Positions 1-1,750 of a DNA stretch of 32,839 nt are shown here, piece by piece. The notes beneath the pieces are model-generated. The model was not told where the DNA came from, ran no database searches, and saw only the letters and a program-made list of their open reading frames with translations. Made by a program: the position numbers and the translations under genes. The stretch's first letter is position 1, and every line of letters begins with the position of its first letter. The stretch comes from an uncultured Bacteroidota bacterium (lineage in GTDB: Bacteria; Bacteroidota; Bacteroidia; Flavobacteriales; Flavobacteriaceae): the NCBI GenBank assembly GCA_902546095.1, contig CACCIQ010000010.1:1-32839 (forward strand), in the 5' to 3' direction.

Positions 1-1279
1 TTGGGTTATCCTCTCGTGTAACTATATTCATTTCTGGTCTTACTCTCTGTCTTGTCATTTGAATCAAACCTATTTTACTAGGTGGAAGAATTTTGTGCTT
101 AGCTCTATCAGATTCCATTTCTGACTTGAAATGGTTAAAAAGTTTTCTTCTGTTTTCATGTTTCAGCATATCGATAAAATCAATTACAACTATTCCGCCC
201 ATATCTCTTAACCTTAATTGCCTAGCTATTTCACTAGCAGCAATCAAGTTCACTTCAAGAGCAGTCTGTTCTTGATTTTCACTTTTATTTGATCGATTTC
301 CACTATTTACGTCAATAACATGAAGAGCTTCAGTGTGTTCTATAATTAAATATGCACCTTTACTCATTGATACAGTCCTTCCAAAGGCAGATTTAATCTG
401 TCTTTCGATTTTGAAATGTTCAAAAATAGGTTTGTCTGATTTGTAATATTTAACTATAGACTTCTTCTTTGGAGCTATTTGCAGGATATAATCTTTTAAT
501 TCATAACAAAGATTTTTATCGTTACAATAAACACCCTTAAATTGATCATCAAATAAATCCCTTAATATTGAAGAGGATCTATTTAATTCACTATGTATTC
601 TAGAGGGAGGTTTTGCTCCGTTTATTTTACTACAAAGTGATAACCATTGGTTATATAAACTTTGTAAATCTTTTTCTAATTCAGCAACTTTTTTTCCTTG
701 AGCAACTGTTCTTATGATTACTCCAAAACCTTTTGGCCTAAATTCTTCAATGAGTTTTTTTAATCTGTCACGTTCCTTTTTACTTTTAATTTTCTGTGAA
801 ACTGAGATTCGATTAGATAAAGGGATTAAAACTAAAAATCTTCCTGCGAAGGAAAGTTCTGAACTAATTCTAGGTCCCTTAGTTGAAATAGGCTCTTTTA
901 TAATTTGGGTAAGAATGGTATCGTTTGGAGAAAATACATTATCAATTTTACCTTGTTTGTCAATTTCTTTTTCAAAGTTTAGTTTTTCAAGTGAATAGTT
1001 AGTGATTTTGCCTTCACTTACAAGTTTCATAAACTTCATAAGTGTTTTTATTTTAGGTCCTAAATCATGATAGTGTAGAAAAGCATCTTTTTCATAACCA
1101 ACATTTACAAATGCTGCATTTAAACCGGTGATGGTTTTTTTCACTTTAGCAATAAAAATATCACCTACATTAAATTTATTATTATCCTTTTCTTTGTGTA
1201 ATTCAATAAGCTTTCCATCATGTAAGACTGCAAAATCAACTGCTGAATTAATTGATCGAATAACAATTTCTTTATTCAC
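1..1279 (-). CDS. rng: Ribonuclease G/E family endoribonuclease (3' end cut by window)
   Basis: Single-strand-specific endoribonuclease of the RNase E/G family, acting in mRNA decay and rRNA maturation. I read it from a GTG at 1279-1277 (VNKEIVIRSI...) without a stop for 426 codons to the window edge. An S1-type RNA-binding part lies at about residues 35-120 (GDIFIAKV, GLNAAFVNVG). The two metal-binding catalytic aspartates are visible: D323 in VIDVNSGN and D367 in VVIDFIDM. Their spacing of 44 residues is close to that of D303 and D346 in E. coli RNase E. The last in-window residues (MTRQRVRPEM) come just before the usual zinc-link region, so roughly the last 80-90 residues should lie outside the window. 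It follows hup and the 29-residue ORF on the same strand. No ATG lies near the N-terminus, so GTG is the likely start. Confidence 0.93.
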   Translation of the reverse strand, partial: MNKEIVIRSINSAVDFAVLHDGKLIELHKEKDNNKFNVGDIFIAKVKKTITGLNAAFVNVGYEKDAFLHYHDLGPKIKTLMKFMKLVSEGKITNYSLEKLNFEKEIDKQGKIDNVFSPNDTILTQIIKEPISTKGPRISSELSFAGRFLVLIPLSNRISVSQKIKSKKERDRLKKLIEEFRPKGFGVIIRTVAQGKKVAELEKDLQSLYNQWLSLCSKINGAKPPSRIHSELNRSSSILRDLFDDQFKGVYCNDKNLCYELKDYILQIAPKKKSIVKYYKSDKPIFEHFKIERQIKSAFGRTVSMSKGAYLIIEHTEALHVIDVNSGNRSNKSENQEQTALEVNLIAASEIARQLRLRDMGGIVVIDFIDMLKHENRRKLFNHFKSEMESDRAKHKILPPSKIGLIQMTRQRVRPEMNIVTREDNP

Positions 1280-1368: not shown

Positions 1369-1458
1369 TTACTTTTTTTTATGTCTATTAGCTCTACTTC
1401 TTTTTTTTCTCTTGTGAGTAGAAACTTTATGTCTTTTTCTTTTTTTACCGCTTGGCAT
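1369..1458 (-). CDS. 29-residue highly basic protein, probable ribosomal protein (bS22/mS38-like or bL38)
   Basis: A tiny ORF starting ATG at 1458 and ending TAA at 1371-1369, encoding a protein that begins MPSGKKRKRHKVSTHKRKK and ends RANRHKKK. Eighteen of its 29 residues are Lys or Arg, and there are no acidic residues. From memory, near-identical short proteins sit beside hup and rng in other Flavobacteriia. The stretch HKRKKRSRANR lines up by eye with the HKxxKRxxRNR core of the AURKAIP1/COX24 family, whose members are mitochondrial mS38 and mycobacterial bS22. It lies 10 nt after the hup stop and is probably co-transcribed with it. A role in the small ribosomal subunit is inference. The alternative is the Bacteroidota-specific bL38 reported in the Flavobacterium johnsoniae ribosome, whose sequence I cannot recall. 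As a gene I am fairly sure; as a function, less so. Confidence 0.75.
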   Translation of the reverse strand: MPSGKKRKRHKVSTHKRKKRSRANRHKKK

Positions 1459-1468
1459 ATATTTTTTT

Positions 1469-1750
1469 TTAGTTGTTGTTTTTTACATCCTCAACAAAGA
1501 CTTTAGCAGGTTTAAAAGCCGGAATGGAATGAGCAGGTATCTTAATTGTTGTATTTTTAAGAATATTTCTTCCGGTTTTCTCAGCTCTTTTCTTTACAAT
1601 AAAACTTCCAAACCCTCTTAGATATACATTCTCACCTTCACTCAAAGAATTTTTTACTTCATCCATAAAATTTTCAATAGTTGCTAATACTTCATTTTTT
1701 TCTAATCCTAAATTTGAGGAAATTTTATTTACTATTTCTGCTTTAGTCAT
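1469..1750 (-). CDS. hup: HU/IHF-family DNA-binding protein
   Basis: Nucleoid-associated protein that dimerises and bends DNA. The 93-residue form starting MTKAEIVNKI matches the usual length of the family (about 90-95). The reading frame extends further upstream (to 1819), but that N-terminal addition has no family counterpart, so the ATG at 1750 is chosen. The helical dimerisation half is residues 1-45. The beta-arm signature follows, with GFGSFIVKKR, GRN, and IPAHSIPAFKPAK at the C-terminal end. It is divergent from mutY (93 nt apart) and leads the hup - small basic ORF - rng cluster. The product could be HU- or IHF-like; the sequence alone does not separate the two. Confidence 0.93.
   Translation of the reverse strand: MTKAEIVNKISSNLGLEKNEVLATIENFMDEVKNSLSEGENVYLRGFGSFIVKKRAEKTGRNILKNTTIKIPAHSIPAFKPAKVFVEDVKNNN

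Follow-up and report, generated by a model that had tools for sequence, protein, structure and literature searches.

Ribosomal protein bS22 assigned to a 29-residue reading frame between hup and rng in a Flavobacteriaceae bacterium, and its apparent loss in some relatives of bearers

bS22 and a short basic reading frame beside hup

In the 70S ribosome of Borrelia (8FMW), the protein bS22 is described as occupying a pocket of 16S rRNA made by helices h2, h27, h44 and h45 and as touching H68 of 23S rRNA; the same account has this pocket filled in mycobacterial and Bacteroidetes ribosomes, places Borrelia bS22 nearer to that of Flavobacterium johnsoniae than to the mycobacterial protein, and counts it as an essential-gene candidate in Borrelia (PMC10618245). 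The bS22 of C. acnes is reported between h27, h44 and h45, where a contact with H67 of 23S rRNA forms an extra bridge, and it superposes on its F. johnsoniae counterpart, with which it shares 37% identity (PMC10085706). Yeast mS38 is said to stabilise h44, and mitoribosomes reportedly need it to form efficiently; mycobacterial bS22, which is similarly placed, is taken there as sharing the origin of mS38 (PMC6582356). As described in these sources, actinobacterial bS22 (M. smegmatis, C. acnes) and mS38/AURKAIP1/COX24 are basic helices at the same 30S site (PMC10618245, PMC10085706, PMC6582356).

The window analysed here, by which we mean the whole 32,839-nt stretch of contig CACCIQ010000010.1 from an uncultured member of the Flavobacteriaceae, carries on its minus strand, from 1458 down to 1369, a complete ORF of 29 residues (ATG at 1458, TAA stop at 1371-1369), whose product is MPSGKKRKRHKVSTHKRKKRSRANRHKKK. 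Such an ORF between hup and rng had been pointed out in an earlier note on this DNA, and Pfam matches name both neighbours accordingly. Upstream lies hup (1469-1750, minus strand, ATG at 1750, stop at 1471-1469), encoding a 93-aa HU-type DNA-binding protein that matches Bac_DNA_binding at E 2.3e-27 (scanned as the 1472-1819 frame). Downstream lies rng, for ribonuclease E/G (2-1279, minus strand), with a probable GTG start at 1279, truncation by the left end of the window and a match to RNase_E_G at E 7.3e-100. All three genes share one strand; the ATG of the short ORF falls 10 nt past the hup stop, and 89 nt separate its end from the rng GTG. It is probably co-transcribed with hup. Divergent from hup on the plus strand is a mutY-like glycosylase gene (1844-2863; HhH-GPD and NUDIX_4), a syntenic neighbour outside the system. 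Our scan of the locus found no terminator, an AT hairpin between the ORF and rng folds no better than shuffled sequence (z 0.35), and the six promoter-like sites compare with 4.0 +/- 2.3 in shuffles, for which we claim no excess.

The peptide contains 16 Lys/Arg among its 29 residues, to be read in place of the 18 given earlier, plus three His. The window has 140 ORFs that start with ATG and measure 20-60 aa; none has a higher K/R fraction than this one (0.55), and the runner-up reaches 0.35.

Identity, conservation and selection

In a phmmer search of PDB chains, three matched the peptide at E<=10, each without gaps over 28-29 residues and each equalled by 0 of 1000 shuffles. The best is chain 5 of 7jil, an entry which we take to be the F. 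johnsoniae ribosome and with whose chains comparison had been proposed (E 4.1e-11, 27/29 identities, no gaps); this 30-residue chain has Ala where the window protein has its two Ser. The second is 9i5v_10, named 'AURKAIP1/COX24 domain-containing protein' (E 5.9e-8, 23/29), and the third 8fmw_V, named 'bS22' (E 5.2e-6, 20/28). The latter is the Borrelia burgdorferi protein (bb0822), from another phylum and with a GUG start (PMC10618245), which shares the THKRKK and NRHKK motifs with the window peptide. A 22-sequence profile, whose alignment (A1) includes two of the matched PDB chains, recovered the same three at E 2.1e-15, 3.0e-14 and 7.7e-13, with no fourth at E<=10. By our own reading, the features of A1 are a length of about 28-32 aa, an MPxG start, and THKRKK and NRHK cores, and the window peptide conforms to them. 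Copies in genus g108 carry KHKRKK in place of THKRKK, and two of the 22 rows, from same-order genomes (G046 and G058), start with MSGAKKKK and end in KTK with both cores intact. None of the Pfam families matched the peptide at E<=10, nor did any NCBIfam model (the 22 rows of A1 gave one match, at E 5.3), and phage records held no match to bS22 at E<=10.

The gene is widespread. With the peptide as query, bS22 was matched in 53 of 60 relatives, including all 32 with completeness of at least 90% and contamination of at most 5%, and in 288 of 296 genomes of the phylum. The seven relatives without a match belong to the same genus, are 55-84% complete, and also lack rng (0/7) and hup (0/7), so their assemblies probably omit this region. 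Gene order was compared over 84 loci (85 minus L063), made up of 76 with bS22 and eight rng loci from genomes lacking it. Among the 76, hup lies within 120 nt upstream in 61, at 522-1098 nt in eight (five of these with an identity of just 25-41%) and was not found in seven; rng lies downstream in 64, and a mutY-like gene on the opposite strand in 58. The start codon is ATG in 74 and GTG in two. In the 57 closest loci a same-strand hup is always upstream and rng is downstream in 56, the exception (L003) being a contig end. One single-contig genome of 344,793 bases (G051) retains bS22 beside rng, with hup missing at the locus. Relative to the window copy, pN/pS ranges from 0 to 0.31 over 75 loci and from 0 to 0.13 among same-genus copies, with pS up to 0.78, values obtained by simple counting over 29 codons with multiple hits uncorrected. 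Restriction to close relatives, equal frequencies of synonymous and nonsynonymous change, and want of a matching ribosome chain, the outcomes named beforehand as speaking against the gene, are thus none of them found.

From these matches and their conservation we conclude that the ORF is a real gene for ribosomal protein bS22, and we are nearly certain of this assignment, with the protein most likely working as its F. johnsoniae and Borrelia counterparts reportedly do. The identification itself is already known, the protein having been modelled previously in ribosomes of related bacteria. The earlier proposal of a Bacteroidota decoding-site protein therefore holds as bS22, by the matches to 7jil_5 and 8fmw_V, with the site taken from the Borrelia description (PMC10618245). 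Carried over from the published ribosome papers, the most likely mechanism is that bS22 would form a bent, highly basic helix in the 30S pocket of 16S h2, h27, h44 and h45, close to the decoding centre, where it would neutralise rRNA phosphates, steady upper h44 and touch 23S rRNA on subunit joining. We infer that it is present in the ribosome of this organism, with such a stabilising role.

Alternative readings and the link to mS38

So short an ORF, with A/T-rich flanks, could be a chance frame in AT-rich intergenic DNA. In 100 random windows drawn from a first-order Markov model, none of 21,852 ORFs of 20-60 aa exceeded a K/R content of 0.4545, and because conservation is phylum-wide and pN/pS lies far below 1, we regard this reading as refuted and leave it practically no probability. 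The earlier note had also raised bL38, an additional protein of the F. johnsoniae ribosome that is defined here by a place on the 50S near 23S H95, and '50S ribosomal protein L38' is indeed one of two names attached to the best-matching PDB chain sequence. Against it, the peptide also matches Borrelia bS22, a protein of the 30S pocket, and bL38 is handled in the same source as a distinct 50S protein (PMC10618245), which makes bL38 highly improbable. As to the names, the 7jil_5 sequence stands in five PDB entries (7jil, 9oz9, 9ozn, 9ozz and 9p0e), where the same 30-aa chain is called both 30S S22 and 50S L38; one of the two may be mistaken.

It is also conceivable, if very unlikely, that bS22 has a second, extra-ribosomal job, either antimicrobial as in C. 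acnes, whose bS22 is reported to inhibit growth and cell-free translation (PMC10085706), or tied to hup and rng, to which it is tightly linked in the 57 closest loci. This linkage is incomplete over the 76 bS22 loci, and the alignment of C. acnes bS22 with the window protein is no better than that of shuffles. bS22 as a ribosomal protein remains our reading.

Its relation to mS38 is a separate matter. The earlier note had aligned the core by eye with that of mS38 and mycobacterial bS22, a likeness that did not survive formal comparison. The window peptide has no match at E<=10 to COX24_C (Pfam PF08213, cut-off 23 bits), the family search that the note had suggested, and its own genome has none; the family is reached weakly by three of the 22 relatives in A1 (best E 0.099). 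BLASTP against mycobacterial bS22 returned no alignment, and hhalign against actinobacterial bS22 gave a probability of 3.5% (E 0.012) over five columns. Global alignment with two actinobacterial bS22 proteins yielded 9/29 and 7/29 identities (z 0.9 and -0.2), equalled by 204 and 564 of 1000 shuffles. In these tests the likeness of actinobacterial bS22 and mS38/AURKAIP1/COX24 to the window protein is only compositional; counter to this missing similarity stands the 37% identity quoted above for C. acnes and F. johnsoniae bS22 (PMC10085706). The COX24/mS38 link is accordingly not demonstrable from sequence here and draws on published structures, that is, on ribosomal place and shape. Common descent with mS38, favoured by the authors in the cited text (PMC6582356), may hold, our sequence tests neither showing nor excluding it.

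Apparent losses of bS22

Eight genomes of the phylum have rng and no bS22 match. Searching them with the 22-row profile also gave no hit at E<=10; in their relatives the profile does detect bS22. Three of the eight belong to genus g108 and three to family f49, and two (G304 and G351) are draft assemblies in 310 and 450 contigs. Within g108, five of 12 genomes carry bS22 (profile E 3e-12 to 7e-12); two further matches, at E 0.47 and 0.71, which bring the total at E<=1 to seven, are at chance level. In the seven g108 genomes without bS22 (L100-L106) both flanking genes are present, the downstream gene being 71-80% identical, and the interval from hup to its neighbour measures 93-199 nt, whereas it is 300-398 nt in the three bearers measured. 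No basic ORF was seen in the interval of these seven loci in the three frames inspected. With bS22 absent from the hup locus in seven of the 12, some species seem to manage without it.

Ten loci from named records repeat this division. bS22 is found in Aliifodinibius salipaludis, three uncultured Aliifodinibius, a Balneolaceae MAG and a Balneolia MAG, with intervals of 266-398 nt, and it is lacking in Fodinibius halophilus, F. salsisoli, F. sediminis and F. roseus (L118, L123, L124 and L125), with intervals of 128-184 nt. Since the neighbour proteins of eight of the ten are identical to those of sampled genomes, the two sets are not independent. Weak tblastn hits to rng (E 0.33-0.75) and to bS22 in L123 (E 0.38, off the hup locus) were taken as chance. 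On the neighbour-gene tree the label of presence or absence needs two changes, and a single change is still conceivable. In family f49 (G204, G251, G255 and others), bS22 is confidently found in three of 27 genomes (E about 5e-14, all of genus g179); three more reach just E 0.095-0.82, and 21 have no match. The f49 absence, as judged from the genome profile search, possibly reflects loss, or else divergence or assembly gaps, and in either lineage a copy may have moved and diverged past the profile.

16S rRNA was found in ten of the 24 genomes searched, and nine were usable, four with bS22 and five without. No position inside the 16S separates these four bearers from the five lackers across both lineages; the two columns that do so fall in the flanks, beyond the limits of E. 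coli 16S (ahead of position 1 and past position 1542). Compensation, if any, may therefore lie elsewhere. Taken together, we consider it likely that a clean deletion has removed bS22 from part of the Fodinibius-holding genus and that it goes undetected in most of f49; close relatives with and without the protein would then amount to a natural experiment on its function. Among the open-licence PMC papers that our searches brought up, bS22 loss in Balneolaceae is reported in no title or abstract opening.

The gene of the window is thus a further copy of a known ribosomal protein, short enough to escape notice and unnamed by any Pfam or NCBIfam model searched. The sole point beyond routine is the apparent natural loss of bS22 in some close relatives of bearers, which contrasts with Borrelia, where it is an essential-gene candidate in the cited account (PMC10618245), and which would offer a comparative route to the function of this conserved protein of the decoding region.
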